Positions 5,194 to 28,802 of a DNA stretch of 40,817 nucleotides are shown piece after piece; the stretch's first letter is position 1, and the number at the start of each line of letters is the position of its first letter. This DNA comes from Acidobacteriota bacterium (GTDB lineage Bacteria; Acidobacteriota; Thermoanaerobaculia; Multivoradales; JAGPDF01), in assembly GCA_011525905.1 (NCBI GenBank), contig WYBK01000032.1:1-40817 (forward strand), read 5' to 3'. Under the pieces are notes generated by a model. That model was not told where the DNA came from. It saw only the letters and a list, made by a program, of their open reading frames with translations, and made no database searches. The translations under genes were made by a program, and so were the position numbers.

Positions 5194-8049
5194 TCAGAAG
5201 GGGTTGCCGAGGCTGACGAACCAGACGTAGCCCGGTTCCCAGGGCTCGCGCTCGAGCTTCCAGCCGACCTCGAGACGCAGCGGGCCGATCGGCGAGAGGT
5301 AGCGCACCCCGACCCCGGCCCCCCAGCGCACCTCGCCGGGATCGACGTCGGCGAAATCACGCCAGACGTTGCCGCCATCGGCGAACAGGGTGCCGCCCAA
5401 GCCGCCGAAGATCGGGAAGCGGTACTCGAGATTGACCAGGACGAGCGCGCCGCCGCCGATCGGCACGTAGTCGTCGCCGCCGCTCGCGATCAAAGTCTCC
5501 CCCGGCACGCCGAGTCGATCGCGCTCGAAGGCGCGATGGCTGGTGCGGCCGCCGGCGTAGAAGCGCTCGGCGGCGGGCACGTAGTCGATCCCTTCGAACG
5601 CCGGATCGGTCTCCTCGCGCAGGTTCTCGATGGCGCCGAGCCGAAGGCTCGTGGCCAGCACGCCGGCGTCGCCCAGATCGACGTAGCCGGTGCCCTGCCC
5701 GAACAGCTTGCGGAACTCCGAGTTGGCCGCGAACGCCGGGAAGGCGCGCTCGAGCGAAGTCGACAGGCTCCACCCTCGCCGCGGATCGATCGGGTCGTCG
5801 CGCCGATCGTAGAAGGCGATCGGCGTCAGGCTCGCCACCCGGGCGTCACGGCTCTCGAGCGGAATCTCCGCCTCGGCCACCTCGCTTTCGAGCTCGACGA
5901 TCCGGTAGTCGTAGACCAGGCTGCCGAGCAGCCGGCCGAAGTCGCGCTGGACGCCGAGCTGGAGGCCGCGGCGCAGCACGTCGAAGTCCGGGTGGTTCTC
6001 CGACTCGCGGTAGACCGAGCCCCGGAACTCGACCGGCACCGGCCCGAGATAGGGCTGGCGGTAGAGCAGCCGGTAGACCTCCTCGCGCTCGCTCACCAGG
6101 GCGTCGGCCGACAGCGACGCGGCCCGGCCGAAGAGGTTGGCGTGCGCCAGCCGGAGCAGGCCGCGAGCGCCGCTCTCCGAGTCGTAGCCGAAGCCGTAGC
6201 CGACCGAGCGGACGCGCCCCTCCTCGACCTCGACGAGCACGGTGCTGCCCGCGCGCAGCCCGCGGCCGGCGACCGTGACTTCGACGCGCGAGAAGATGCC
6301 GAGCCGGTAGAGGGCGCGCTGCACCTCGAGCAGCCGGGCTCCCGAGATCGGGTCGCCCGGCGCGAGCGGCACGAAGCGGCGCAGCACGGCCGTCGGCGTG
6401 CGCACCTGGCCCCGCAGCACCACCGCGTCGACCGTCGAGCGCTCCCCCTCGAGGAGGTCGAAGCGCACCGAGGCGAGCGCGCGATCGGGGTCCCACCCCA
6501 CGCGCGCGGAGGCGAGCGCGGCGCGATACCCCTCCCGCTCGTAGGCGAGGCGGAGCAGCTCGAGCGCCTCGTCGATCAGCACGCGGTGGAAGGGGCCGCC
6601 CGGCGCGATGCGCAACGCCGCGGCCAGCTGCTCGTCAGTCAGCGCCTGGTTGCCCTCGAAGAGGATCTCGCCGATCCGCTGCCGCTCCCCCTCGACGATC
6701 GGCACGACCAGGCGCAGGCGATCCGGCGCGATCGTCTCGACTCGCGCGGGTCCGATCTTCGCCTGCCCGAACCCCTGCACGGCGTAGAAGGAGCGCAGGT
6801 TCGAGAGATCCGCGGCCAGCTGCTCGTCGACCAATCGGCCGCTGCCGGGCACCAACGGCCGCCGCGGCGAGAGCGCCATGCGCTGGACGAGCACGTCGCC
6901 GGCGAAGCTCGCGTTGCCCTCGAAGGCGATCTCCGCGAGCTCGAAGCGGGGCCCGGGCTCGATCTCGAGATGGACGACCAGCACCTCGCCGGCCGGCTCG
7001 TCACGGCGCTCCTCGCGCGTCTCGACGCGCACCTGCCAGTGCCCGCGCTGCTGATAGGAGCTGCGGATCTGGGCCGCCGCCTGGAGCAGCAGCGCCTCGT
7101 CGTAGCCCGCCTCGCCCAGGAAGGGGAGCAGGTCGCGCTTCTCGAGGTCGTCGCGCTCCGCCCCGACCAGGCGCAACTCGAGGCGCGGGCCCCGCTCGAT
7201 CCGGTAGGCGAGGTCGACCCGGGCCGCCTCGGCATCCCGATGCTCGGGCAGCGCTTCGACCTGCGCCAGGCGATAGCCGGCCGCGACCAGCGCGCGCGTC
7301 AATCGTTCGGAGTCGTCGCGCAGCGCCGGGCTCCGGTAGGGGCGGCCGGGGCCGGCGCGCAGGACCGCGAGGAGCTCGCGCTCCTCGGCCGGCGAGGCGA
7401 CCCCCTCGAGCCGCACCTCGCCGACCTGCCAGCGCGCGCCCGGGTCCAGCCGGTAGGTCACCCGGGCGCGTCGGAGCCTCGCGTCGACGGCGACGTCCAA
7501 GCCCACCTCGGCGTCGAGGTAGCCCTCCGCTTCGAGCAGCTCCTCGAGCCCGTAGACGCCGCGCAGCACCCGGTCCTCGCGCAGCGGCCGGCCCGCCTTC
7601 TGGTCGACCGCCGCGGCCAGCCGGTCGGCCGGCAACGCCGCCTCGCCGGCGATCTCGACCGACTCGACCCGGACGTCGGCGCGCAGCACCACCACGGCCT
7701 CGACCCCACCCGCCGCCGGCCGGGTCAGCACCTCGACCTCGGAAGCGAGGCCGGCCAGCCGGAGACGGATCAGCGTGTCGCGGACCGCGCCTGCCTCGAG
7801 CGGCGCGCCGGGGACGAGCGCCACCAGAGCGCGCACCTCTTCGAGGTCGACCTGGCCTTCGCCGCGCACCTCGACGCGCGTGATCCGGGGCGCCTCGGGC
7901 GAGGCGCCTGCCGGAGTCTCCGGCAATACGCCGGTCGGAGCCTCCGAGAGCGCGCCAATCGGCGCGACGAGACCCGCGAGCCCTAGCAGCGTCCAGGCGG
8001 CACGCCGGGCGAATGCTCCTCGCGCCCGGCTCAGTAGCGGGTCTCCCAT
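5194..8049 (-). CDS. tamA: Omp85-family outer membrane assembly protein (TamA/BamA type)
   Basis: 951 residues from the ATG at 8049. That start places a signal peptide (about 11-35, [16 protein letters not shown]) at the N-terminus, and the ATG overlaps the tamB stop by 19 bases. After a short Pro/Ala linker come several POTRA-like units (about 45-520; for example [17 protein letters not shown] and [19 protein letters not shown]), then a 16-strand-type beta-barrel (about 610-951) ending in Phe (SLGNPF), as Omp85 barrels do. There are more POTRA units than the three of E. coli TamA, nearer BamA. The tamB gene immediately upstream favours the TamA role: inserting outer-membrane proteins or moving lipids. 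It could also be the only BamA-like gene of a branch. Confidence 0.88.
7860..7930 (-). repeat. Degenerate Pro/Ala repeat in the tamA linker
   Basis: Between the signal peptide and the first POTRA unit the protein reads EAPTGV, PETPAGA, PEAP: three imperfect copies of a (S/P)E(A/T)PxG unit encoded by GC-rich near-repeats. This is probably a flexible spacer and may vary in copy number between strains. Exact limits are approximate. Confidence 0.4.
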
Positions 8050-11000
8050 CGCGCGTCGACCGCGTAGGAATCGTTGCCGTTCTGGGTCAGCACGAGCGTC
8101 AGCTTCTCGTCGATCCGCCACTCGACCTGGAGGATCTGTTGCGCCGTGGTCGAGGGATCGTAGGAGTAGGTGACGAACAGATCGCGCGCTACCCGCTTGC
8201 CGACCGTGACCCGCGCCGTCGAGACGGCGTCGCCGACGGTCAGCGGATCGATCCGCACGGTGTCGAGCCCGAAGAGCCGGTGCACGCGGGCGGAGAGCAG
8301 CGACGCCGCCTGGCCGTAGAGCAGCGTCTCGGCCGCCTGCGCGGTGGCCGCGCCGCCCGGCTCGGCGCCGGTCCCGCGGCCGCCGCCGTAGCCGGAGAGC
8401 GCGTCGGGCTGCAGCGGCGCGCCGCCGGCGATCAGGCCGAGGACGTCGAGATCGGGCAGCGGCGGCTCGGCGGTGAAGGTCGTCTCGAGCCCGGCCAGCG
8501 GACCGTCGAGCCGCACGGTGACCAGGTAGGGATCGATGCGGGTGCGGGCGACCACGTCGAGCACCGGCTCGATCCGGGTCGGGTTGGCGAACAGGACGCG
8601 CGCCCGCTCGAGCTCGTAGCTGTTGCCGCCGTACTCGACCCGCCCGCGCGGGTCGACGGCGAGCTCGCCGAAGACGACCGGGCGCGCCAGCGTCCCGCGC
8701 ACGGTGAGCTCGCCGCCGCCGGAGAGCGAGGCGATGTTGTTGCGCACCCGCAACGCTCCCGACGCCTCGACCACGATGCCGAGCGAGGTCGTGGCGCTCA
8801 GGTCGTCGGTGGCCACCTCCTCGACGCGCCCCTTGGTCAGCAGCCGCTGGATGAGCTGGGCGGGCGAGAGCGCCACGTCCTGCAGGTAGAAGGCGCGATC
8901 GAGGCGCACCTCACCGCGCAGCTGACGCCCTTCGGGCGTCGAAGCGAGCGCCAGGTCGGCGTCGCCGCGCAGCAGCCAGCCCGCCGGGTAGCGCAGCGCG
9001 AGGCGGCGCGCCGCCAGGTCGAAACGGTAGCTGGGCTCGGCGGCCACCGGCAGGTCGACCCGGCCGGCCACCGTCAGCTCGCCTCCGGCGAAGGCGGCGT
9101 CCAGCCGGTCGAGCACGACCGCGCGCGGATAGAAGAGCGCCAGGCCGCGGACTCGCTCGAACGAATGGGGTACCCCCGCGAGGATCCAGCGCCCGTCGGC
9201 GAGCGAGGCCTGACCGTTGAGCTCCGGATGGTTCGGCGCGCCGCGCACGACGGCCAGCAGGTCGAGCCGGCCGGCGATGTCGTGGCCGCCGAGCAGCGGG
9301 CGCAGCACCGCCGCGCCGACGCTCGCCTGAACCCGGAGGTCGAGCCGAGGCGAATCGGCCAGCTCGACGGTCCCGCTCAGGAAGAGCTCGTCGCTCGCCC
9401 CGCTGGCGCCGAGGTAGAGGGACTCGAGCTCGAGCCGATCTCCCTGCCAGACGGCGCGCACCGGCTCGAGCGCCTCGAGGATTCGGCCGCCGGTACGGAC
9501 CTCGAGCCGGGGGAGCTCGAGCGCCGCGGTGAGCGGCTGACCGGGCGAGGCGGCGAGGGTCAGCGTGCCGGCGAGCTCCCCGGCGAGCCCTTCGATGCGC
9601 CCGGCTCCCGCCAGATCGAGCCAGCGATCGAGCCGCGCGCTCGCCACGTCGAGCTCGATTTCGGTCGCTCCCGAAGGGTCGAACGCTCCGGCGCCGGCAG
9701 CGGTCAGCAGGTCGCCGATCGTGGCCTCGAGGGCCAGCCGCCCGTCGGCCAGACGAACCGTGGCCCGGGCGCGCTCGCCCGCCGCGGCCGGGCCGCCCGG
9801 TAGCACCAGGTCGTCGCTCGTCGCCTCGACCGTCGCGACCGGCGCCTCGAGCGTCCCGCCGAGCGAGCCCGCGAGCCGGAGCCGGCCGGCGGCGCGGCCG
9901 GCGAGCGGGCCGGCGAAGGGCTCGGCGCCGAGGTCGAGCGCCGCCGCCGCGAAGCCGAAATCGAGGCTGCCGGAGGCGACGCCCAGGCGCCCGCTCGCCT
10001 CGAGCCGCCCCGCCGGCGTGCTCAGGGCGCCCCGCACGAGCTCGACCGTCTCGGGATCGAACCGCACGCGCCCTTCGATGCGGCCGAGCGCCACCCCCTC
10101 GACCGTCGCCGGGGCGAGCGTCGCCTCGAGGTCGCCGGCGATCGAGTCGAGCGCGCCGGTCAGGCGCAGCGTGCCGGTCGCCGCGCCGTCGACCGGCAGT
10201 TCGAACGGCAGCCAGGGGCGCGCCTGGTCGAGCGGCCAGTGCTCCGCCCGCACCAACAGGTCGAGCCCGTCGCCGGCCAGCGGGAGACGGCCGACCAGCG
10301 AGAGCTGCGCGCCATCGTCGCCGGCGGCGGCGAGGTCCATCGCCTCGATCGCCTCGCCCGTCGCCACCAGGCTGCCGCTGAGGCGCTCCGCGGCCATTCC
10401 CGGCGCTGCGACCGCCGCACAGGCGAGCTGGAGATCGGCGCGCAGGCCGCGGCGATCGACCGCCACCCGGCCGGAGACCACGCCGGTGCCGCTCACGGGA
10501 CGCCAGAGGTCCCCGGGCGCTCCCAGCTCGGCGAGCGTCGCGAGCTCCGCGAGGTCCTCGGCGTTCGCCTCGAAATCGAAGGTGCCGGCGCCCGCTTCGA
10601 GGTCCCAGGTGCCGCTCGCCGAGGCGCGCACGCCCGGTGTCGCCAGCTCGAGCGCCGGCAGCAGCAACCGGCGGTCCTCGAGCGCCAGCCGCGCCGCCCC
10701 GGTCGCCGGCAGGCCGTCCGCGCCCGCGCGAGCGATCGGCAGCACGTCGAAATCGCCGCTGCCCGAGCCGCGCCGGGCCCCCGCCAGCTCGAAGTCGTGG
10801 CGGAAGGTCCCGTTCACCTCGCCGGCCAGTCGTTCCCCGGGGAGGCCGAACCGGGCCAGCACCCGCGCCAGGTCGGCGCCCGCCAGTCCGACCTCGAGGC
10901 GCGCCGGATAGCGGCCCGGCTCGAGGTCGACCTCGAAGGCGCCCTGGACGGCCCCCCCCTCGAAGCGGCCGCGAGCGACGTCGACGTGCACCGCCCGCCG

Positions 11001-11948
11001 CTCGACGGCGACGCTGCCGGCGAGCTGCTCGAGGCGGAAGCCGAAGAGGTCGAGGGCAGGCGAGGCGAGAGAGCCGCGGAAGCCCCAGGCCTCGCGCCGC
11101 CACTCGAAGCGGCCCTCGACCTCGACCGGCCCGGCGATCTCGCCGTCCAGGTAGCCGAGCCGGTCGACCACCGACCCGGCGCCGTCGAGCGCGATTCCGA
11201 GATCCACCACCGTCGGAGCGAAGCCGATCTGGCCAGTCACCCGCGCCGCGAGGTCCGTGCCGTCGACCCGCGCCTCGAGGATCTCGAGCCCCGAGCGCGT
11301 CAGCCGCGCCTTGGCGGCGAGCGCGAGAGGGAGCGGCCGCGCGCTCGGCAGGAGCAGCTCCACCTCCCGGGCGCTCACCTCCCCCTGGAGGTCGAGGCCG
11401 CCGAGCCCGACCAGGCTCGCCACGACCGACCGGGCCGCGACGTCGACCGGGACGGTGCGTTCCGCCACCGTCACCTCGGAGTCGGCGACGCGCACGCCGT
11501 CGACCCGCAGGCGCAGCTCGCCGCCGCCCCCCGTCCGCCGCGGCCGGGGGATGTTGTCCGAGCCGCCGGCGCGGAACTCGAGGTAGAGGTCGAGCCCGTC
11601 GATCTCGACGGCGGAGAGGACGAGCTCCGAGCGCCCGAAGCCTTCGAGCTCCCCTTCCACCGCCAGCCGCCGCAGGCGGGCGAAGGGGCGCGCGCCGGGG
11701 GCGTCGCCGGCGACGGTGACGCCCTCGAGCTCGACGGCGAAGGGGAGCAGGCGGAAGTCGAGCCGCTCGATGGTCACTTCGCGCCGCAGCGCGTCCTCCA
11801 GCCGTGCGCGCACCAGCTGACGCGCCCGCTCGCGCGCGAAATCGGATTCCAGGAAGAGAACGAGGCCGGCGACCACGAGGGCCAGCGCGGCCAGGGCCCA
11901 AGAGACGGGCCGGAGGATCCACCTCCGGAAGCGTCCCGGGCCAGCCAC
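8031..11948 (-). CDS. tamB: Translocation/assembly module TamB family protein (AsmA-like, DUF490)
   Basis: About 1305 residues. One N-terminal membrane anchor (about 13-35, SWALAALALVVAGLVLFLE) is followed by a very long periplasmic beta-rich region of repeated short strands, then the conserved TamB C-terminal domain (last 350 residues, including RNNIASLSGGGELTVRGT and LDVVARTRIDPYLVTVRLDG). TamB spans the periplasm and works with TamA; related AsmA proteins form hydrophobic grooves that move phospholipids to the outer membrane. GTG 11948 is chosen because GGGGAG lies 5 bases before it; GTG 11954, overlapping the nadK stop, is the alternative. An ATG further upstream (12077) would overlap nadK by more than 120 bases and is unlikely. 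Confidence 0.93.
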   Translation of the reverse strand: MAGPGRFRRWILRPVSWALAALALVVAGLVLFLESDFARERARQLVRARLEDALRREVTIERLDFRLLPFAVELEGVTVAGDAPGARPFARLRRLAVEGELEGFGRSELVLSAVEIDGLDLYLEFRAGGSDNIPRPRRTGGGGELRLRVDGVRVADSEVTVAERTVPVDVAARSVVASLVGLGGLDLQGEVSAREVELLLPSARPLPLALAAKARLTRSGLEILEARVDGTDLAARVTGQIGFAPTVVDLGIALDGAGSVVDRLGYLDGEIAGPVEVEGRFEWRREAWGFRGSLASPALDLFGFRLEQLAGSVAVERRAVHVDVARGRFEGGAVQGAFEVDLEPGRYPARLEVGLAGADLARVLARFGLPGERLAGEVNGTFRHDFELAGARRGSGSGDFDVLPIARAGADGLPATGAARLALEDRRLLLPALELATPGVRASASGTWDLEAGAGTFDFEANAEDLAELATLAELGAPGDLWRPVSGTGVVSGRVAVDRRGLRADLQLACAAVAAPGMAAERLSGSLVATGEAIEAMDLAAAGDDGAQLSLVGRLPLAGDGLDLLVRAEHWPLDQARPWLPFELPVDGAATGTLRLTGALDSIAGDLEATLAPATVEGVALGRIEGRVRFDPETVELVRGALSTPAGRLEASGRLGVASGSLDFGFAAAALDLGAEPFAGPLAGRAAGRLRLAGSLGGTLEAPVATVEATSDDLVLPGGPAAAGERARATVRLADGRLALEATIGDLLTAAGAGAFDPSGATEIELDVASARLDRWLDLAGAGRIEGLAGELAGTLTLAASPGQPLTAALELPRLEVRTGGRILEALEPVRAVWQGDRLELESLYLGASGASDELFLSGTVELADSPRLDLRVQASVGAAVLRPLLGGHDIAGRLDLLAVVRGAPNHPELNGQASLADGRWILAGVPHSFERVRGLALFYPRAVVLDRLDAAFAGGELTVAGRVDLPVAAEPSYRFDLAARRLALRYPAGWLLRGDADLALASTPEGRQLRGEVRLDRAFYLQDVALSPAQLIQRLLTKGRVEEVATDDLSATTSLGIVVEASGALRVRNNIASLSGGGELTVRGTLARPVVFGELAVDPRGRVEYGGNSYELERARVLFANPTRIEPVLDVVARTRIDPYLVTVRLDGPLAGLETTFTAEPPLPDLDVLGLIAGGAPLQPDALSGYGGGRGTGAEPGGAATAQAAETLLYGQAASLLSARVHRLFGLDTVRIDPLTVGDAVSTARVTVGKRVARDLFVTYSYDPSTTAQQILQVEWRIDEKLTLVLTQNGNDSYAVDARWETRY

Positions 11949-11950
11949 CG

Positions 11951-12802
11951 TCACTCCCCCCAGTGGAGCTTGCTGCGCAGTCCCTCGAAGATCGAGCGCG
12001 GCTCGAGCGTCCGGGCGAGGTGCACGCTCTCGGCCGACCGGGTCACCCGCAGGCGGTCGCCGCGCGTCATCTCGCACCCTTCCTGGCCGTCGACGGTGAG
12101 GTTGACCTTTTCACCCGGTGTCTCGAGGATCACTTCGACCACGCTCGAGTCGGGCACGACCAGCGGGCGCAGCGTCAGGGTGTGCGGGCAGATCGGCGTC
12201 AGCACCGCCACCGGCAGGTGGGGGTGGAGGATCGGACCCCCGGCCGAGAGGTTGTAGGCGGTCGAGCCGGTCGGCGTCGAGACCACCAAGCCGTCGGCGC
12301 GGTAGCGCGACACCAGGCGGCCGTCGACCTCGAGCACCAGCTCGACGATGCGGGCGAGCGATGCCTTGGCGATGACCGCGTCGTTCAGGGCGCGGAAGCA
12401 GGCGCGCTCGCCGTTGGTGCGCTCGAGCAACACGTCGAACAGCGAGCGCGAATCGAGCTCGAAGCGCCCGGCGAGCACCTCGACCAGCGCCGGGTAGAGG
12501 TCGTCGCGCGGCACCTCGGTCAGGAAGCCGAGCCGGCCGAGGTTGACGCCCAGGATCGGCGGCCCGCCGGCGTAGCGGCGCGCCACCGAGAGCAGCGTGC
12601 CGTCGCCCCCCAGGACGACCACCAGGTCGGCCGGCGCGCCCGGCTCGAGCACGCCGTCGGAGCCGCCGATCGCCGCGCGCGACGCCGGGTCGAGCAGCAC
12701 CTCGTGGCCCCGCCGGGCGAGCCAGACCACCAGCTCCTCGGCGAGCCCGAGGGCGCCGTCGTCGCGTTTGGCGACCACGCCGACGCGCGGAAAGGCGGTC
12801 AC
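11951..12802 (-). CDS. nadK: NAD kinase
   Basis: 283 residues starting at GTG 12802, which overlaps the tlyA stop by 4 bases (GTGA). It has the GGDGTLLS motif near 62-69, the NDAVIAKA segment, and the glycine-rich YRADGLVVSTPTGSTAYNLS segment near 170, the hallmarks of ATP-dependent NAD kinases. It phosphorylates NAD to NADP in the cytoplasm. The ispA-dxs-tlyA-nadK order is common across bacteria, often with xseA/xseB and recN, which are not seen here. Confidence 0.96.
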   Translation of the reverse strand: MTAFPRVGVVAKRDDGALGLAEELVVWLARRGHEVLLDPASRAAIGGSDGVLEPGAPADLVVVLGGDGTLLSVARRYAGGPPILGVNLGRLGFLTEVPRDDLYPALVEVLAGRFELDSRSLFDVLLERTNGERACFRALNDAVIAKASLARIVELVLEVDGRLVSRYRADGLVVSTPTGSTAYNLSAGGPILHPHLPVAVLTPICPHTLTLRPLVVPDSSVVEVILETPGEKVNLTVDGQEGCEMTRGDRLRVTRSAESVHLARTLEPRSIFEGLRSKLHWGE

Positions 12803-13548
12803 GCGCCCCTCCGCTCGAGCAGCGCGAAGGTCTCGCGGTTCCCCTCGGCGCCGGCGACCGGCGAGTCGAAGGTGCCCACCAGGAGCAGTCCGAGCTCGGC
12901 GAGCTCGCGCGCCCGGGCTGCGACCGTTGCCCGGCGCAGCGCCTCGTCGCGCACGATCCCTCCCTTGCCCACCCGACCCTTGCCGACCTCGAACTGCGGC
13001 TTGAGCAGGACCAGCAGCCGGCCGCCGGGCGCCAGGTGCGGCAGCAACGCCGGCGCCACCAGCGTCACCGAGATGAACGACAGGTCGACCACCACGAGGT
13101 CGAAGGGCGCGGCGAATGCGTCGGGCGCCAGGTGGCGGGCGTTGACCCGCTCGACCACCTCGACCCGCGGATCGGCGCGCAGCCGGGCGTCGATCAGGCC
13201 GTAGCCGACGTCGAGCGCAACGACCGAGCGCGCTCCCCGCTCGAGCAGGCAGTCGGTGAAGCCGCCGGTCGAGGCGCCCACGTCGAGGCAGCGGGCCCCC
13301 GCCGGGTCGAGGGCGAAGTGGTCGAGCGCCGCCGCCAGCTTGCGGCCGGCGCGAGAGACGTAGGGTTCGGCACGCTCGGCGACGGCGAGCGCGGCGTCCG
13401 CGCGCACCGGCGTGCCCGGCTTGTCCAGGCGCCGCCCCTCGACCGAGACCACCCCGGCGAGCACCGCCCGGCGCGCCTTCTCGCGGGAGTCGAACAGGCC
13501 ACGCTCGACCAGCAGCTGATCGAGCCTCGCGCGCGCGGGAGCCGGCAT
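12799..13548 (-). CDS. tlyA: TlyA-family rRNA 2'-O-methyltransferase / hemolysin A homologue
   Basis: 249 residues. An N-terminal S4 RNA-binding domain (about 5-65, RLDQLLVERGLFDSREKARR) is joined to an FtsJ-like SAM methyltransferase (about 75-249) with the SAM motif LDVGASTGGFTDCLL and the following acidic strands. Family members methylate ribose 2'-OH groups in 16S and 23S rRNA; hemolysin is a historical name. It heads the tlyA-nadK-tamB-tamA unit. A TAGACT element ends 6 bases before the ATG and I see no Shine-Dalgarno site, which suggests a leaderless message. Confidence 0.93.
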   Translation of the reverse strand: MPAPARARLDQLLVERGLFDSREKARRAVLAGVVSVEGRRLDKPGTPVRADAALAVAERAEPYVSRAGRKLAAALDHFALDPAGARCLDVGASTGGFTDCLLERGARSVVALDVGYGLIDARLRADPRVEVVERVNARHLAPDAFAAPFDLVVVDLSFISVTLVAPALLPHLAPGGRLLVLLKPQFEVGKGRVGKGGIVRDEALRRATVAARARELAELGLLLVGTFDSPVAGAEGNRETFALLERRGA

Positions 13549-21098: not shown

Positions 21099-23210
21099 AT
21101 GCGCGCCGTCGCCGAACGCTTCTCGCTCCGCCCGACCGCACTTCGCCGGTTCCTGCCGCTCGCGGCCTTCGCCGCGTCGGTGCTCCTCGCCGCGCCCCAG
21201 GCGGCCCGCGGCCAGACCACGGCGCCGCCCGACCTGCGCCCGGTGGGAACGAATCGGCCGAGCGTCGACGTCGGCGGCTCGCTGACGCTCCAGGTCCGCT
21301 TCACCATCGGCGAGCAGCCGATCGCCCAGTACCCGATCGACTTCACGGTGGTCAGCTCGCCCGGCGGCGTCTCCGGGCCCGCGAATCCGCGCTTCACCAA
21401 CGTCGACGGCGTGGCTTCGGCGACCTTCTCCTTCGACGAGGCGGGGTCGGTCCGCATCGACGCGAACGCCCTCGACTCGAGCGCCGGCAGCGTCTCGTTC
21501 AACATCACCGTGCGCGAGGCCGGCGGCGGCGGGGGCGGCACGCCGGCGGCGCCGCGGGTCGGCGCCCTCGAGCGGATCGGACCGGGCGAGATCGCTCTCG
21601 TCCTGGGCGATCGCAACCTCTTCGAGGTGCGCGTGCTCGACACACAGGGCAATCCCCTCCCGGGGATCGCGCTCACCTGGACGGTCGAGGAGTCTCCCGG
21701 GTCGCCCCGTTCGGTCGGCGCCACCACGCCGAGCGACGCCGCGGGCATCGCCACCGGCGACTTCGGCTTCAGCGTCACCGGGCACACCGAGATCTCCGCC
21801 TCCTACCCCGGCGTCTCGCCGGTGCGCTGGCAGATCGACACGGCGAGCCTCGGCACGCTGACGCCGGACAATCGCAGCTACGGCTCGACCGGCGCGGCCC
21901 TCGACGCGATCTGCGCCGAGGTCTTCGCGTCCGAGACGCCCGAACCGACCCCGCTGTGCGTCTACATGACCGGCGCGCTGACCACCCGCGACTCGCGCGC
22001 CGAGGCGGTCGCCGAGCTGACCGCCACGGGCATCGGCAGCCAGACGACGGCGGCCGCGGCCGGCCTCGCCGACCAGATGAAGACGGTCGAGGCGCGCCTC
22101 TCGGCGCTGCGCGGCGGCGCGCTGCGCCAGGCGCTCACCCAGATCTCGCTCAACGTCGGCGGCGGCGTGGTGACCGACGGCCTGCTCGCCTCGGCGCGCT
22201 CCGCCCACGAGCGGCAGGAGGCCTTCGAGACCCGGATCGACCAGAGCCTGCGCTCGTTCGGCGCCGGCAAGGGGCGCCAGTCGGGGACGACCCCGGCCGC
22301 CGGTTCCGCGCCGAGCCCGAAGCGCGACCGCCCTTGGGGCTTCTTCGTCAACGCCCGCCTCACCGAAGGCGACCGCCCGGCGGGACAGGACGAGACCGGC
22401 TTCGACTTCGACACCTTCGGCGCCACGGTCGGCATCGACCGGGCGGTCGGCGCCAACCGCTTCTTCGGCGCCGCGCTCTCGCTGCTCGAGACCGAGACCG
22501 ACCTCGCCGACAACGCCGGCACGCTCGACGTCTCGGGCACGACGCTGACGCTCTACGGCATCTGGGAGGGACGCAAGAGCGGTTACTTCCAGGCGACCGC
22601 GGCCTACGGCGTCAACGAGTACGAGCAGGCGCGCGTGCTCGAGCTGCCAGCGATCGGCACGCTGACCGCGCGCGGCGACTTCGACGGCACGCAGCTCGCC
22701 GGCACGCTCGAGGCGGGCTGGTCGTGGGACGGTTGGGCCGGCACCACGACGCTCTTCGGCCGGGGCAGCTTCGCCCGCGCCGAGGTCGACGGCTTCCGCG
22801 AGAGCGGCGCCACCGCGGTCATTCCGGGCTTCGAGTTCCTGGGCGAGAGCGATTTCGGCATCGAGGTCGACGACCAGGAGATCGATTCGCTGGTCGGCGA
22901 GATCGGCATCGACTTCGCCCGCGTCTACCAGTTCTCCGGCGGCCTCTTCGTGCCGCAGCTCAACCTCTCGGCGCTCCACGAGTTCGACGACGACGGCCAG
23001 CGGATCCGCGGCCGCTTCCTGGGCGACGTCGCGGCGGGCTCGGCCTTCGAGCTCTACACCGACGACCCCGACCGCGACTACTTCAACGTCGGCGCCTCGA
23101 TCCGCTTCCAGTTCCTCTGGGGCTCGTTCTTCGTCGCATACGACCAGGAGCTCGAGCGCGACGACCTCGATCTGGCGACCTGGAACGGCGGCCTGCGCTT
23201 CGAGTTCTGA
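21099..23210 (+). CDS. Autotransporter-type outer membrane protein with Ig-like passenger
   Basis: 703 residues. A signal peptide (about 1-38, ending AARGQ) is followed by two Ig-like (Big-type) domains (about 45-140 and 155-250) joined by a Gly hinge (GGGGGG, about 144-149), a helical linker (about 290-410), and a C-terminal beta-barrel (about 425-703) beginning PWGFFVNARLTEGDR and ending in Phe (GLRFEF). The barrel has the alternating aromatic pattern of autotransporter domains. The passenger is Ig-like rather than beta-helical, so adhesion or surface display is more likely than secretion of an enzyme. It is a single-gene unit between the CDP-sugar operon and the kinase. Confidence 0.82.
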   Translation: MRAVAERFSLRPTALRRFLPLAAFAASVLLAAPQAARGQTTAPPDLRPVGTNRPSVDVGGSLTLQVRFTIGEQPIAQYPIDFTVVSSPGGVSGPANPRFTNVDGVASATFSFDEAGSVRIDANALDSSAGSVSFNITVREAGGGGGGTPAAPRVGALERIGPGEIALVLGDRNLFEVRVLDTQGNPLPGIALTWTVEESPGSPRSVGATTPSDAAGIATGDFGFSVTGHTEISASYPGVSPVRWQIDTASLGTLTPDNRSYGSTGAALDAICAEVFASETPEPTPLCVYMTGALTTRDSRAEAVAELTATGIGSQTTAAAAGLADQMKTVEARLSALRGGALRQALTQISLNVGGGVVTDGLLASARSAHERQEAFETRIDQSLRSFGAGKGRQSGTTPAAGSAPSPKRDRPWGFFVNARLTEGDRPAGQDETGFDFDTFGATVGIDRAVGANRFFGAALSLLETETDLADNAGTLDVSGTTLTLYGIWEGRKSGYFQATAAYGVNEYEQARVLELPAIGTLTARGDFDGTQLAGTLEAGWSWDGWAGTTTLFGRGSFARAEVDGFRESGATAVIPGFEFLGESDFGIEVDDQEIDSLVGEIGIDFARVYQFSGGLFVPQLNLSALHEFDDDGQRIRGRFLGDVAAGSAFELYTDDPDRDYFNVGASIRFQFLWGSFFVAYDQELERDDLDLATWNGGLRFEF

Positions 23211-23254: not shown

Positions 23255-23277
23255 AATCTAGGGGCGCGGCTCGGTGA
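23245..23277 (+). CDS. Leader peptide frame (MSGESRGAAR) coupled to the kinase start
   Basis: ATG 23245 opens a 10-codon frame ending in TGA at 23275-23277. That stop overlaps the kinase GTG (23274) as GTGA, the same junction type used at several operon joints here. The frame is not in phase with the kinase. It would be read from a leaderless mRNA. It could couple ribosome arrival at the weak kinase start or sense translation state. It may also be a chance frame: it is too short for composition tests. Confidence 0.3.
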   Translation: MSGESRGAAR

Positions 23278-25430
23278 TCCACGCCAACATCGACCCGAAG
23301 TACGAGGTCGTCAAGAAGCTGCGCGAGGGCGGCATGGGGGCGATCTACCTCGTCCGCCACCGTCTGCTCGACGAGCTGCGCGTCATCAAGGTGCTGCGCT
23401 CGCAGCTGGTCGCCGACGAGGATCTCAAGCAGCGCTTCCTGCGCGAGGCCAAGATCGCCATCCAGCTGCGCCACCCGAACATCGCGCAGCTCTACGACTT
23501 CTCGATCGACGAGGAGGGCACGGCCTGGATCGTCCTCGAGTACATCGACGGCATCACGCTCGAAGAGTACGCGCGCCAGCCCGAGGCCCGCCACCTGCCG
23601 CTCACCCTGGCGATCGCCCAGCAGGGGCTGCGCGCGCTCGGCTACCTGCACCGCAAGGGGTTCGTCCACCGCGACATCGCGCCCGACAACCTGATGCTGA
23701 CGCGCGACGTCGACGGCGAGCCGCTGGTCAAGCTGATCGACCTCGGGATCGTCAAGATCCTCAAAGGCGAGGGCAAGGGCACGGCGACCTCGCTCTATCT
23801 CGGCAAGCCGAAGTACTCGAGCCCCGAGCAGCTGATCAGCCAGGACATCGACGCGAGAAGCGACCTCTACTCCTTCGGCGTCATGCTCTACGAGCTGGTC
23901 ACCGGCGTCTACCCGATCCACGGCCACGACCTGCCTTCGCTGATCACCGGCCACCTGCACCGCGACCCGGTCGGCTTCGACGTCTCGGACCCCGGCGGCA
24001 TCGTGCCCGAGAACCTGCGGCGCCTGATCCTCGACGCCCTGGCCAAGTCGCGCGAGCAGCGGGTTCCCTCGGCCGAGGAGTTCTCGCGCCGGGTGGCCGA
24101 GGTCGCCGAGGCGCTCGCCTCCGAGCAGGACGGCGACTCCCGGCGGCTGCTCGACCAGGCGCGCGCCGGCGCGCAGCGCGAGCGCGAGCGCGCGCTGGCC
24201 GAGGCGGAGCAGGCGATCCGCGGCCGGCTCGACCAGGAGGATTTCGCCGACGCGCGCGCCCAGCTCGCGCAAGCGGTCGAGCGGTTGGGCAACGACACCC
24301 GGCTCGCCTCGCTGCTCGGCGAGATCCAATCGCTCGAGCAGCGGCGACGCGTCGCCGTGGCGGAATCGGGGCGGCTCGACCACCTGGTCGAGAGCGCCGA
24401 GGCGGCGCTCGCCCGCGGCGACCTGCCCGAGGCGATGTCCAAGGTCTTCGAGGTTCTCTCCCGCGACCCGCAGCACACCCGCGGGCGGGCGCTCCAGGAA
24501 CGGATCGACGAGCGTCGCCGGCGCGACGAGCAAACCGCCGCGGGCGCCACGCGTGCGACCGTCGTCGGCGCCGCCGCGCCGACGCTCAGGAGCGGCGAGC
24601 CGGAGGCCGGGAAGCCGCAGGCCGCGCTCGAGCCCGAAGCCCCACCCGAGTCCGCGGTCGCCCTCGAGCCGGAGACGCCGATCGAATCTCCGCGCCGCGG
24701 CCTGCTGCGCGCCGCGGTGCTCGCCACGGCGGTCGTCGCTCTGGCCGCCGCCGCCTGGTTTCTCTACGGCGCGCTCGCGGCTGCCCCGCCCGAGGGCCCG
24801 GGCGCGGACCACCAGACCCCCACGGCCTACGAGGCCGGCGTGGCGGCGCTCGCCCGCGGGGAGGCCGCCGAGGCCGCCCGGAGGCTGCGCGAGGCGCTCG
24901 CCGCCGATCCGCTCGAGCGCTCGGGCTACCTGCCGCAGGCACGCTACGGCCTGGCGCTCGCCGCGCTGGGCGACTGTGCGCAGGCGCTCGCCGCCTTCGC
25001 CGCCTCGGAGCAGGCCGGCGAGGCGCCGCGCGACGCGATCTGGAGCGAGGTGACGGCGGCGCGCGCCCGCTGCGCCGGCGGCGGGCCGGACGCCGACGCC
25101 TTCGCCCGCGAGCTCGAGCGCGCCGAGGGAGATCTCGCCCGCGTCCTCTCCCAGCTCGGCGAGCTGCGCCGGATGCGCACCACGACCCCCTCGGTCGCCG
25201 ACCTCTGGCGGCGCAACCCGGAGCTCGAGCGTCAGGAGGTGGAGGTCGCCGACCTCGCGACCGAGGCCGAGCGCGCGCTCGCCGCGGCGCGCGCGCGCGC
25301 CGACCTGTCGCAGGTCTACGAGGCCGACGAGCGCAACGGCGACGCGCTCTCGAAGCTCAAGCGCCTGCTCGCCGAGGCCGCGCGCGCCGCCGGCGCCGAC
25401 CTCGAGCGCCTCGACGGCGGCGCCCGCTAG
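23274..25430 (+). CDS. Transmembrane Ser/Thr protein kinase with periplasmic TPR-like repeats
   Basis: 718 residues. The N-terminal kinase domain (about 10-275) has the Gly loop REGGMG (17-22, first Gly replaced by Arg), ATP lysine in RVIKVL (K39), the catalytic loop HRDIAPDN (132-139, Ala in place of the usual Lys), metal-binding DLG (156-158), and SPE in place of APE. A charged coiled-coil/helical juxtamembrane region (280-420) precedes one membrane helix (about 476-501). The remaining 200 residues are TPR-like helices outside the membrane. The kinase would phosphorylate cytoplasmic targets in response to a periplasmic signal. It converges on the caspase gene, sharing the CTAG stop. The HRD-Ala variant is known in bacterial kinases, so activity is likely but unproven. 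Confidence 0.88.
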   Translation: MIHANIDPKYEVVKKLREGGMGAIYLVRHRLLDELRVIKVLRSQLVADEDLKQRFLREAKIAIQLRHPNIAQLYDFSIDEEGTAWIVLEYIDGITLEEYARQPEARHLPLTLAIAQQGLRALGYLHRKGFVHRDIAPDNLMLTRDVDGEPLVKLIDLGIVKILKGEGKGTATSLYLGKPKYSSPEQLISQDIDARSDLYSFGVMLYELVTGVYPIHGHDLPSLITGHLHRDPVGFDVSDPGGIVPENLRRLILDALAKSREQRVPSAEEFSRRVAEVAEALASEQDGDSRRLLDQARAGAQRERERALAEAEQAIRGRLDQEDFADARAQLAQAVERLGNDTRLASLLGEIQSLEQRRRVAVAESGRLDHLVESAEAALARGDLPEAMSKVFEVLSRDPQHTRGRALQERIDERRRRDEQTAAGATRATVVGAAAPTLRSGEPEAGKPQAALEPEAPPESAVALEPETPIESPRRGLLRAAVLATAVVALAAAAWFLYGALAAAPPEGPGADHQTPTAYEAGVAALARGEAAEAARRLREALAADPLERSGYLPQARYGLALAALGDCAQALAAFAASEQAGEAPRDAIWSEVTAARARCAGGGPDADAFARELERAEGDLARVLSQLGELRRMRTTTPSVADLWRRNPELERQEVEVADLATEAERALAAARARADLSQVYEADERNGDALSKLKRLLAEAARAAGADLERLDGGAR

Positions 25431-27355
25431 CCCTTCGGCACGAAGAGGAAGTCGCCCGCCTCGTGGCCGGCGTGGCGGATCGGCGCGTAGATCGGGCTCT
25501 GCGCGATGCCGAGCTGCGCCGCCTTCCAGCCGACCCGCGCCGCCACCGACGAGGCGACCGAGGCGGCCGAGGTGGCTTCCCGCGCCAGCTTGAGCACCGT
25601 GAGCAGCGCCCGGGCGAAGATCGAATGCTCGCCGCCGCCCCCCTCGTCGAGCACCGGCTGCAGCCCGCCCGAGGCGAGCACGGTGCGCGAGCGGCCGCCG
25701 GCGGTGCCGGCGCTGCGCGCCTCGAGCCCGGCGGCGGCGAGCGTGCCGGCGTAGCAGGAGTCGGAGACCACCAGCACGTGTCCGGCGGCGAGCGTGCCGA
25801 GCTGCTTGGCGAGCGCGTCGTTGGGCAGCCAGGTCGAGCGATCGTCCGGGTCGGCGTCGGTCGGCAGCCAGAAGCCGCGGCCGCTCGCCTCGTCGATCCG
25901 GCCGTGGCCGGCGTAGTAGACCAGCAGGTCGTCCTGGGCGCCGAGCGAGCGGCCGACCTCGGAGAGCGCGACCATGGTCTCGAGGAAGGAGGCGTCCTCG
26001 AGCAGGCGCACCGTGAAGCCGTACTCTTGTTCGAGCACGCGCGCCAGCTCGCGGCCGTCGGCGCGCGCCGTGCGCAGCTCGGGCAGCGCGCGGTAGCTGC
26101 CGTTGGCGATCACCAGCGCGTGCTGCCGGCGGCCGCGGACCGCCGGCGGCGGGGCCGCGGCCGGCACCGGCGCCGGCGTCGCCGCGGCGCCCGGCGCGAC
26201 GAAGCGCAGCTCGGCCTCGGCGCGCCGCGCGGCGCTGTCGATCGCGACGAAGCGGACGGTCGACTCGCGCGCGACCGGCAGGCGGACGCGGAAGAAGCCC
26301 TTCTCGTCGACCGACTCCGGCCGGCCGTCGACCGTGAAGGAGGCGAGGCCGAGCTCCGCGGTGACCCGCCCGACGACCTCGGCTTCGCTCGCGCCGGCCT
26401 CGACCGGGGCGAGCGCCGGGCCGCGCGTGGCGAGGACGTCCGGCCGGACGAACTCGATCGCCGGCGCGCGCTTGGCGAGCAGGGTCGCGCCGCCCACCGG
26501 CCGCGCCTTGGCCGCCGCCTGCTCGGCGGCGTCGAGCTCGGCGAGCATGGTGCGGAAGCGGTCCTGCGCCGCCTCGAGCTCGACGATGCGCTCCTGCCGG
26601 CGCGCGATCTCCCGCTCCTTGGCCTCGACTGCCGCCGCATCGGCGCTCGCCGTCCGGCGGCGCGCCGCCTCGAGCTCGCGCTGGCTCGCCGCGAGCTCGG
26701 TGCGCGCCCCCTCGAGCTCGGCGCGGACCGCTTCGAGGCTCGCCGCGGTCGCCGTCGCCTCCTCGCGCACCCGGGCGAGCTCGGCGCGCAGCGCCTCGGC
26801 CTCCCGCTCGGCCGACAGCTCCGCCTCGCCGGTCAGGCCGGCCGCCTTGCGGTACCAGGAGACCGCCTCGGTCAGGCTCGCCTCGACTCCCAGCCCCTGC
26901 TCGTAGAGCGCGGCGAGGTTGCGCTGCGCGCGGCGGCTGCCCGCCTCGGCCGCCTTGCGGTACCAGGCGGCGGCCAGGGCGTGGTCGGGCGCGCCCCGCA
27001 CTCCCTGCTCGTAGATCTCGCCGACATTGTTCATCGCCTCGGGGTCGCCGGCTTCCGCCTGGCCCATCCAGGCCTGCAGGGCGAAGTCGTTGTCGAGCGG
27101 ATCGCGCGCGTGCTCGCCGCCGCGCAGCTCGCACTCGTGCGCTGCGACGCGGACGACCTTGCGGGGGGCCGCGACCTTGGTGTAGCGGCCGAGCGAGCGA
27201 ACCTTGCCGGGCAGCAGGCAGTCGACGATGAAGAGATCCTCGGGGTGCCGGACCTCGCGCTCCTTGGCCGCCGCCGCCGGGACAGCGAGGGCGGCGAGCC
27301 CGAGGGCGAGAGCGAGGACGCCCGGGAAGCGGCTCGGGAAGCGATGGCTGCGCAT
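25427..27355 (-). CDS. Secreted Sel1-repeat caspase-family protease (peptidase C14)
   Basis: 642 residues from ATG 27355, chosen because AGGAGG ends 7 bases before it. A signal peptide (about 1-30, LALALGLAALAVPAAAA) is followed by two Sel1 repeats (about 97-170; EAMNNVGEIYEQGV and RRAQRNLAALYEQG), a coiled coil (177-280), an Ig-like strand region (300-385) and the caspase domain (411-642). The caspase domain has YYAGHG (His 484) and VVSDSCYAG (Cys 534), the catalytic His-Cys pair, so it should be active. Family members cleave after Arg/Lys or Asp and often act in stress or death pathways, but the signal peptide places this one outside the cytoplasm. It converges on the kinase gene. Confidence 0.9.
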   Translation of the reverse strand: MRSHRFPSRFPGVLALALGLAALAVPAAAAKEREVRHPEDLFIVDCLLPGKVRSLGRYTKVAAPRKVVRVAAHECELRGGEHARDPLDNDFALQAWMGQAEAGDPEAMNNVGEIYEQGVRGAPDHALAAAWYRKAAEAGSRRAQRNLAALYEQGLGVEASLTEAVSWYRKAAGLTGEAELSAEREAEALRAELARVREEATATAASLEAVRAELEGARTELAASQRELEAARRRTASADAAAVEAKEREIARRQERIVELEAAQDRFRTMLAELDAAEQAAAKARPVGGATLLAKRAPAIEFVRPDVLATRGPALAPVEAGASEAEVVGRVTAELGLASFTVDGRPESVDEKGFFRVRLPVARESTVRFVAIDSAARRAEAELRFVAPGAAATPAPVPAAAPPPAVRGRRQHALVIANGSYRALPELRTARADGRELARVLEQEYGFTVRLLEDASFLETMVALSEVGRSLGAQDDLLVYYAGHGRIDEASGRGFWLPTDADPDDRSTWLPNDALAKQLGTLAAGHVLVVSDSCYAGTLAAAGLEARSAGTAGGRSRTVLASGGLQPVLDEGGGGEHSIFARALLTVLKLAREATSAASVASSVAARVGWKAAQLGIAQSPIYAPIRHAGHEAGDFLFVPKG

Positions 27356-27399
27356 GTCGAAACCTCCTGGCACGTCGGGTCGGGCGCGAGCGGTTTCCT

Positions 27400-27476: not shown

Positions 27477-28802
27477 ATGACCACGATCCAGCCCATCGGC
27501 GCCGAGCTCCACGCGCTCGCCCGCCGGCTCTACCCGATCCCGCGCTCGATCACCGGCGACGGCGTGCGCGCGACGCTGGCGATGCTCGCCGAGTGGGTTC
27601 CGCTGCGAGTCGTCGAAGTTCCCTCCGGCACGCCGGTGCTCGACTGGACGGTGCCGCGCGAGTGGCGGCTGCGTGCCGCGCGACTGATCGCGCCCGACGG
27701 GCGCGTGGTCGCCGACGCCGCGGTCCACAACCTCCACCTGCTCAACTACTCGGCGCCCTTCCACGGCCGCCTCTCGCTCGCCGAGCTCGAACCCCATCTC
27801 CACTCGCTCCCCGACCGCCCCGACTGGATCCCCTACCGCACCAGCTACTACCGGGAGACCTGGGGCTTCTGCCTGCCGCACCGGGTGCGCGAGTCGCTGC
27901 CGGAGGGGGAGTACGAGGTGCTCGTCGACAGCGAGCTGTTCGACGGCGCGCTCACTTACGGCGAGCTCGCCCTGCCGGGCGAGCGGGAGGAGGAGATCCT
28001 CTTCTCGACCCACGTCTGCCACCCTTCGCTCGCCAACGACAACCTCTCGGGCATCGTCGTCCTGGCGGCGCTCGCGCGCGAGCTCGCGGGGCGGGAGCGA
28101 CGGCGCCTCTCCTACCGATTCCTCTTCGTGCCGGGGACGATCGGCGCCATCGCCTGGCTGGCGGCCAACGAGGCGGCGACCGCGCGCATCCGCGGCGGTC
28201 TGGTCGCCGCCGGCCTCGGCGACGCCGGCCGCTTCCACTACAAGCGCAGCCGCCGGGGGGACGCCCCGATCGACCGCGCGGTGCCGGCGGCGCTCGCCGC
28301 GCTCGGCGAGGAGCCGGTGGTCGAGGAGTTCGTCCCCTTCGGCTACGACGAGCGCCAGTACAACTCCCCCGGCTTCGCGCTCGACGTCGGCTCGCTCACC
28401 CGCACCCCCTGGGGGCGCTACCCCGAGTACCACACCTCGGCCGACGACCTCGACTTCATTCGGCCCGAGGCGCTCGAGCGCTCGCTCGCCGCCTACCGCG
28501 CCGTGGTCGACCTTCTCGAGGGCAACGAGACCTACCGCAACCTCTGCCCCAAGGGGGAGCCGATGCTCGGCCGCCGCGGCCTCTACCGCTCGACGGGCGG
28601 CGACGAGGCCGGGCGCGAGCGCGAGCTCGCCCTCCTCTGGGTGCTCAACCTCTCCGATGGCGGCCACGACCTGCTCGCCATCGCCGAGCGGGCCAAGCTC
28701 CCCTTCGCCCGCGTCCGCGAGGCCGCCGACCGCCTGCTCGAAGCCGGTCTGCTAGCGCCTGCAGGCGATCCGGATCTCGACCGGCCGCCCACGGGCCGGT
28801 AG
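27477..28802 (+). CDS. DUF4910 family aminopeptidase-like protein with C-terminal winged helix
   Basis: 441 residues. The N-terminal half has PIPRSITGDGVRATL and the DUF4910 peptidase core: STHVCHPS (about 181-188), NDNLSG (about 190-195) and YPEYHTSADDLDF (about 315-327), which carry the presumed M28-type zinc ligands His, Asp and His. The last 70 residues (LALLWVLNLSDGGHDLLAIA) form a winged-helix-like domain. Homologues sit in capsular and exopolysaccharide clusters; their substrate is not established, and a peptidase or amidohydrolase role is a guess. It has its own promoter and is followed by the IPTL-CTERM gene. Confidence 0.85.
   Translation: MTTIQPIGAELHALARRLYPIPRSITGDGVRATLAMLAEWVPLRVVEVPSGTPVLDWTVPREWRLRAARLIAPDGRVVADAAVHNLHLLNYSAPFHGRLSLAELEPHLHSLPDRPDWIPYRTSYYRETWGFCLPHRVRESLPEGEYEVLVDSELFDGALTYGELALPGEREEEILFSTHVCHPSLANDNLSGIVVLAALARELAGRERRRLSYRFLFVPGTIGAIAWLAANEAATARIRGGLVAAGLGDAGRFHYKRSRRGDAPIDRAVPAALAALGEEPVVEEFVPFGYDERQYNSPGFALDVGSLTRTPWGRYPEYHTSADDLDFIRPEALERSLAAYRAVVDLLEGNETYRNLCPKGEPMLGRRGLYRSTGGDEAGRERELALLWVLNLSDGGHDLLAIAERAKLPFARVREAADRLLEAGLLAPAGDPDLDRPPTGR

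Follow-up and report, generated by a model that had tools for sequence, protein, structure and literature searches.

Three neighbouring genes in the window, the 40,817-nucleotide stretch of DNA analysed here, encode an autotransporter-type outer-membrane protein, a transmembrane Hanks-type Ser/Thr kinase and a secreted Sel1-caspase (Table 1). Genes of these kinds are linked in other genomes, kinase and caspase are fused in some lineages, autotransporter and caspase co-occur across the class, and the Sel1 partner has lost its catalytic Cys beside an active caspase borne by the kinase. Comparison of the sequences strongly supports the view that the three genes work together. We read them, with a probability of about 0.6, as one trans-envelope module in which the caspase would link the barrel and the kinase ectodomain in the periplasm.

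Table 1. Coordinates of the three genes, their predicted domains and associated sites (window numbering)
Feature	Position	Strand	Basis or remark
Autotransporter-type outer-membrane protein	21099..23210	+	PF03797 1.1e-37, PF02369 2.7e-12
C-terminal autotransporter beta-barrel	about 22344-23114	+	
Transmembrane Hanks-type Ser/Thr kinase	23274..25430	+	PF00069 3.3e-39, catalytic motifs, TM scan
Kinase, cytoplasmic kinase domain	about 23301-24065	+	Pfam Pkinase aa 10-264
Kinase, cytoplasmic helical region	about 24132-24563 (about aa 287-430)	+	
Kinase, single TM helix	about 24711-24767 (about aa 480-498)	+	TM scan
Kinase, periplasmic helical domain	about 24825-25424 (aa 518-717)	+	
CTAG with both TAG stop codons	25427..25430	.	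4-nt tail-to-tail overlap
Secreted Sel1-caspase	27355..25427	-	PF00656 2.6e-16, PF08238 1.8e-15, alignment, predicted structure
Caspase, Peptidase_C14 domain	about 25493-26128 (aa 410-621)	-	PF00656
Caspase, catalytic Cys534 in DSCYAG	25754..25756	-	alignment
Caspase, catalytic His484 in YAGHG	25904..25906	-	alignment
Caspase, beta-sandwich	about 26198-26461	-	
Caspase, coiled coil	about 26507-26812	-	
Caspase, two Sel1 repeats	about 26840-27043	-	PF08238
Caspase, Sec signal peptide (AVPAAA-AKE)	about 27257-27355	-	by eye
AGGAGG Shine-Dalgarno	27363..27368	-	7 nt upstream of caspase ATG 27355

The three proteins encoded in the window

The kinase frame runs from a GTG start at 23274 to a TAG stop at 25428-25430, and both the Hanks-type profile and the full set of catalytic residues are present (K39, D134 and N139 of the HRD motif, and D156-L-G). 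The closest solved kinase is PknB. A cytoplasmic kinase domain, a single TM helix and an extracytoplasmic domain are also found in the PknB/StkP kinases, whereas the module kinases lack PASTA domains and have an ectodomain that is helical or a caspase. The window kinase scores below the cut-off of the PASTA kinase equivalog NF033483 (224 bits against 450) and has no Pfam PASTA match. The predicted structure was of low confidence (pTM 0.30) and was used for secondary structure alone. An earlier note on this DNA had described periplasmic TPR-like repeats in the kinase; helices do occur, on both sides of the membrane, but their resemblance to TPR was judged by eye only and Pfam calls no TPR in the protein. 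Kinase-domain matches number about 37 in the genome, which has one Sel1-caspase of the present kind.

The caspase exceeds the curated cut-off of the Peptidase_C14 profile (60.4 against 21.4 bits), and its catalytic His is conserved in 34 of 34 aligned caspase domains. A Shine-Dalgarno sequence 7 nt before the ATG at 27355 favours this short start over the GTG at 27373. Both reading frames, and the intact His-Cys pair of the caspase, are as first described. Among solved structures the fold nearest to the caspase model is the MALT1 paracaspase (Foldseek 5e-10), and MALT1 was also the best match of the caspase domain in a profile search (5e-13). MALT1 cleaves after Arg and becomes active on dimerisation; it is a eukaryotic signalling protein of the cytosol and carries death and Ig domains, whereas the window caspase is secreted and has Sel1 repeats. 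C14B proteases are described as cleaving after Arg or Lys (PMC6426788), and an Asp two residues ahead of Cys534 would fit a basic P1 residue. Protease activity and Arg specificity are both predicted from such features. The N-terminus of the Sel1-caspases carries a motif with two cysteines, DCLLPGxxRxLG...C.IRGGE (window about 27100-27230, minus strand), which hardly varies between Acidobacteriota and Pseudomonadota and is retained in pseudocaspases too; it may form a disulfide and serve for binding in the periplasm.

The third partner lies directly upstream of the kinase on the same strand, across a gap of 63 bp in which we looked for a terminator-like site and found none. Its autotransporter beta-domain scores 130.6 bits against a cut-off of 26 and is the single PF03797 match in the genome. 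The protein also begins with a signal-like segment and has two Ig-like stretches of the Big_1 type and conserved pre-barrel helices that contain RLSALRGG. Related autotransporters are made of Calx-beta or Big_1 domains plus the barrel, and in most modules the autotransporter adjoins the kinase, the fusion or the Sel1-caspase. That the autotransporter belongs to the same unit as the kinase and the caspase is strongly supported by these comparisons; the pairing proposed earlier stands, while its restriction to two genes, which missed the upstream autotransporter, does not.

Conservation of the gene neighbourhood

The best kinase and caspase matches in relatives fall side by side, tail to tail, and convergent pairs were seen in six further genomes of the window's order. 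The distance between stops is 12 bp in G007 and 5 bp in G004 and G006; in G001, where the C-terminus of the kinase is on the caspase contig, 6 bp separate the ends, and in G011 the two ends overlap by about 150 bp. Genome G003 has two pairs, the first still convergent at a distance of 10 kb and the second with about 1 kb between the genes, while in G002 the pair is broken by contig ends in a manner that fits convergence. Beyond the class-wide search, G315, from another family of the phylum, has a convergent kinase and Sel1-caspase 19 bp apart. The 10 kb of the first G003 pair (L079 5064-15230) hold several genes between caspase and kinase stops that are adjacent in sister genomes, and are an insertion that preserved the convergent order.

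The two stops do coincide in CTAG, as reported before, but the idea that this locks the gene ends together has to be given up: the overlap is unique to the window among the pairs compared, and with such variable spacing in the relatives it is a local accident, so that CTAG was ruled out as a functional lock. Tail-to-tail gene pairs are common in dense genomes, and the unconserved overlap would suit convergent neighbours kept by chance through compact genome organisation. We consider this most improbable in view of the conservation over families and phyla, the same partners in changed order, the fusions and the matched presence and absence. The suggested kinase-caspase link is supported, as the same pair was found beyond very close relatives, with adjacency kept in other families, in G315 and in one Desulfosarcinaceae genome, besides the fusions.

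Of about 147 genomes of the class, 18 have a strong PF03797 match (E below 1e-20), and these are precisely the 18 that have the Sel1-caspase. The chance of two identical sets is 2e-23 if genomes are treated as independent and shared ancestry is ignored. Two genomes of the same genus illustrate the pattern: G007 has all three genes, and G005 lacks the caspase, the autotransporter and a close kinase. Physical linkage of the kinase-caspase to the autotransporter is not universal: it is missing in G024, and in G021, G028, G037 and G045 it is missing for the fusion genes. Other caspases of the phylum, without Sel1 and without partners in the fetched stretches (G408, G172, G157 and G357), were left out of the comparison, and in the plasmid records that we examined the module did not turn up again in complete form.

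Seven loci outside the phylum were found through the caspase alone, and in six of them an autotransporter adjoins the Sel1-caspase (Desulfosarcinaceae, Chromatiales, Tectomicrobia, Eisenbacteria, Burkholderiales and Contendobacter). A rough estimate that assumes independent placement gives a chance of 1e-19 for such linkage, and in four of the six genomes the adjoining autotransporter is the only one present. The seventh genome, Oleiphilus (L153), has an autotransporter unlinked to its Sel1-caspase. In the Desulfosarcinaceae locus (L071) autotransporter, caspase and kinase are consecutive on the same strand, the kinase having 477 aa and a DUF4384 ectodomain; it is the only one of the six with an adjacent kinase, and in the other five the kinase may be no more than an optional extra. 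Taken further, these five loci would suggest that the functional pair is the autotransporter with the Sel1-caspase alone, and that in the window's lineage the kinase is just a convenient local neighbour. We regard this as improbable, given the kinase-TM-caspase fusions and the different kinases repeatedly recruited beside or into the module.

Several further features of these loci deserve mention. In L071 the gene of the DUF4384 kinase (10232-11665) overlaps the stop of the Sel1-caspase, and a second, convergent kinase gene, whose product has a PEGA domain, comes next (11717-12961). DUF4384 proteins, one of them with a peptidoglycan-binding domain, are also encoded near kinase-less Sel1-caspases (L072 2520-4034 and L073 6027-7283), where they may take the place of a kinase ectodomain. 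DUF4384 has been reported in caspases and in kinases (PMC6426788); here it forms the ectodomain of a kinase beside a Sel1-caspase, and is absent from the window kinase. On a plasmid of Azospirillum sp. B510 (L145 2639-7870), a related caspase domain is the C-terminal part of WP_247894518.1, a protein annotated as filamentous-hemagglutinin N-terminal domain-containing, which makes another link between a caspase and an adhesin. This domain and those of related Azospirillum plasmids are about 34-38% identical to the Contendobacter query.

Kinase-caspase fusions and inactive Sel1 partners

An active caspase and a kinase share one frame in G008, G016, G021, G023, G024, G028, G037, G045 and G076; the count of ten fusion genomes includes G040, whose fusion-clade caspase has its N-terminal part cut off by a contig end. 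A TM helix separates kinase and caspase in all eight fusions scanned for one, leaving no room for a periplasmic helical domain between helix and caspase, and the His and Cys of the fusion caspase domains are intact throughout. The suggestion in the earlier note that the two proteins meet through helical repeats thus gains no support. The same genomes also encode a separate Sel1-caspase, and wherever its catalytic region is present (nine of nine) the catalytic Cys has been replaced, by A in G008, G016 and G040, by V in G021, G024, G028, G037 and G045, and by S in G076. The beta-sandwich of the active Sel1-caspases is missing from these partners. The Cys is retained in lineages without the fusion, among them all seven loci from outside the phylum. 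Our reading is that each module probably keeps one active caspase, with the dead Sel1 protein kept as a partner. G024 additionally carries a caspase without Sel1 (L100).

Fusion caspases and Sel1-pseudocaspases form two separate, well supported clades in the caspase tree (99/96 and 100/99), so that Cys loss and fusion seem to go back to a single ancestral event or to a few and to have been conserved from then on, and the ten genomes do not amount to ten independent confirmations. In the kinase tree one clade holds the module kinases of the window's family, those of G011, G315 and L071 fall elsewhere and the fusions make up two groups; the presence of module kinases in several clades indicates that the recruitment of kinases was repeated.

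Proposed wiring and relation to known systems

The barrel would sit in the outer membrane, the Sel1-paracaspase-like protease in the periplasm and the kinase in the inner membrane, with its kinase domain in the cytoplasm. These compartments are predicted from topology, that is, from the signal-peptide-like N-termini of the separate Sel1-caspases or the position of the caspase after the TM helix in the fusions, and they agree with the periplasmic meeting place suggested in the earlier note. For the substrate and the direction of the signal we can only infer. A relay starting outside would begin with a change in the surface or barrel protein; the Sel1/caspase protein would pass the signal to the kinase ectodomain by binding, most likely together with an Arg-specific cut, and this input would alter phosphorylation in the cytoplasm. 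In the sister lineages the kinase protein carries the active caspase domain, and the Sel1 protein would persist as a catalytically dead adaptor. We lean tentatively to this outside-in direction, at somewhat less than even odds, because a TM kinase normally receives its input through the ectodomain, which in the fusions is the caspase. The fuller proposal, that a periplasmic paracaspase couples an autotransporter barrel to a Ser/Thr kinase by proteolysis and that the active caspase moved between partners, leaving an adaptor pseudocaspase, seems to us evenly balanced.

A signal running from inside to outside is nearly as good an account, if on its own rather doubtful. LapD-LapG-LapA is a c-di-GMP controlled system of a periplasmic cysteine protease and an adhesin. 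By analogy with it, the kinase would sense the cytoplasmic state and activate the periplasmic caspase through its TM helix and ectodomain. A cut by the caspase in the stalk of the autotransporter, for instance behind the RLxALRGG Arg, would then shed the surface protein or remodel it. The autotransporter and the Sel1-caspase, the pair conserved most widely, would fit such a scheme, as would the fusion of the related Azospirillum caspase domain to a filamentous-hemagglutinin-like adhesin. The pre-barrel RLxALRGG or a close variant is found in the module autotransporters, and the Arg at ALR is present in all that could be aligned reliably (those of L073 and L074 could not), whereas the unlinked, plasmid-borne control autotransporters mostly have His at this position. 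However, two Azospirillum autotransporters unlinked to any caspase share the Arg, the pre-barrel segment may be structural, and the Arg was downgraded from a cleavage site to a lead only. Some module autotransporters (L074, L136 and L153) have no long passenger to shed, and it is usually the ectodomain that bacterial TM kinases read.

The module has the same general parts as the Lap system: an inner-membrane regulator, a periplasmic cysteine protease and an outer-membrane-anchored surface protein with Ig or Calx-beta domains. The parts themselves differ, the module having a protein kinase, a caspase fold and an autotransporter barrel where Lap has a c-di-GMP receptor, LapG and an RTX adhesin, and the Pfam scans, that of the three window proteins included, found no LapG-type transglutaminase-like protease or LapD-type GGDEF/EAL receptor.

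A programmed death or conflict module, in which the kinase would release the caspase as a killing effector, seems unlikely to us, and the death function raised in the earlier note has no independent support. Conflict systems of bacteria repeatedly use caspases and Ser/Thr kinases as effector domains that can replace one another (PMC8195603), and the PADLOC models of the anti-phage kinase PD-T4-6 match the kinase. These models, which have no cut-off here, cover mainly the kinase domain and matched a kinase-caspase fusion as well; the caspase and the autotransporter match no PADLOC model, and beyond such generic kinase matches nothing in PADLOC speaks for a defence system. Moreover, a periplasmic location is likely for the caspase, which is tied to an outer-membrane barrel, and a STAND ATPase or death-like domain is absent from the proteins scanned. 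The EACC1/EACC2-associated caspase systems combine a constant caspase with variable partner domains, and proteolytic activation has been proposed for them (PMC8195603). The window caspase differs in being secreted and linked to the outer membrane, and it scores 77.3 with the EACC1-associated caspase model NF047832, below the cut-off of 140.

Sel1-metacaspases, pseudo-orthocaspases, TM kinases and autotransporters are each already known. In a survey of metacaspases from 2012, Sel1 is among the four commonest extra domains (40 of 671 proteins), and its main text mentions kinases only with cell death and does not include autotransporters among the partners described (PMC3501461). The p20 caspase fold, the His-Cys dyad and pseudo-variants are likewise reported for bacterial metacaspases and orthocaspases (PMC3501461, PMC6426788). 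The caspases of the window type differ by their ties to an outer-membrane barrel and a TM kinase and by the relocation of the active site onto the kinase in some lineages. A keyword search of the open-access literature found no description of the autotransporter-caspase-kinase trio in PMC3501461, PMC6426788, PMC8283722 or PMC8195603, and there is a fair chance that the module deserves a class of its own.

Bacterial caspases are widespread, but a partner, a location or a trigger has been assigned to only a few of them. Through its conserved partners, compartment and natural fusions, the module offers a testable wiring of surface barrel, periplasmic caspase and transmembrane kinase, and it is a concrete candidate for a caspase function outside cell death. 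Lineages with an active Sel1-caspase and a separate kinase, set against those with a dead Sel1-caspase and a fusion, form a natural experiment on pseudocaspases becoming adaptors, a route that has been proposed for animal caspase regulators.

Two other features of the window were also noted. An Omp85/POTRA protein (5194-8121, minus strand) beside a TamB homologue (8031-12077, minus strand) makes up a TamA-TamB-like pair 9 kb from the only autotransporter of the genome; the TAM complex helps to assemble autotransporters. Divergent from the caspase, the gene at 27477-28802 (plus strand) encodes a DUF4910/DUF2172 aminopeptidase-like protein with HTH_47.
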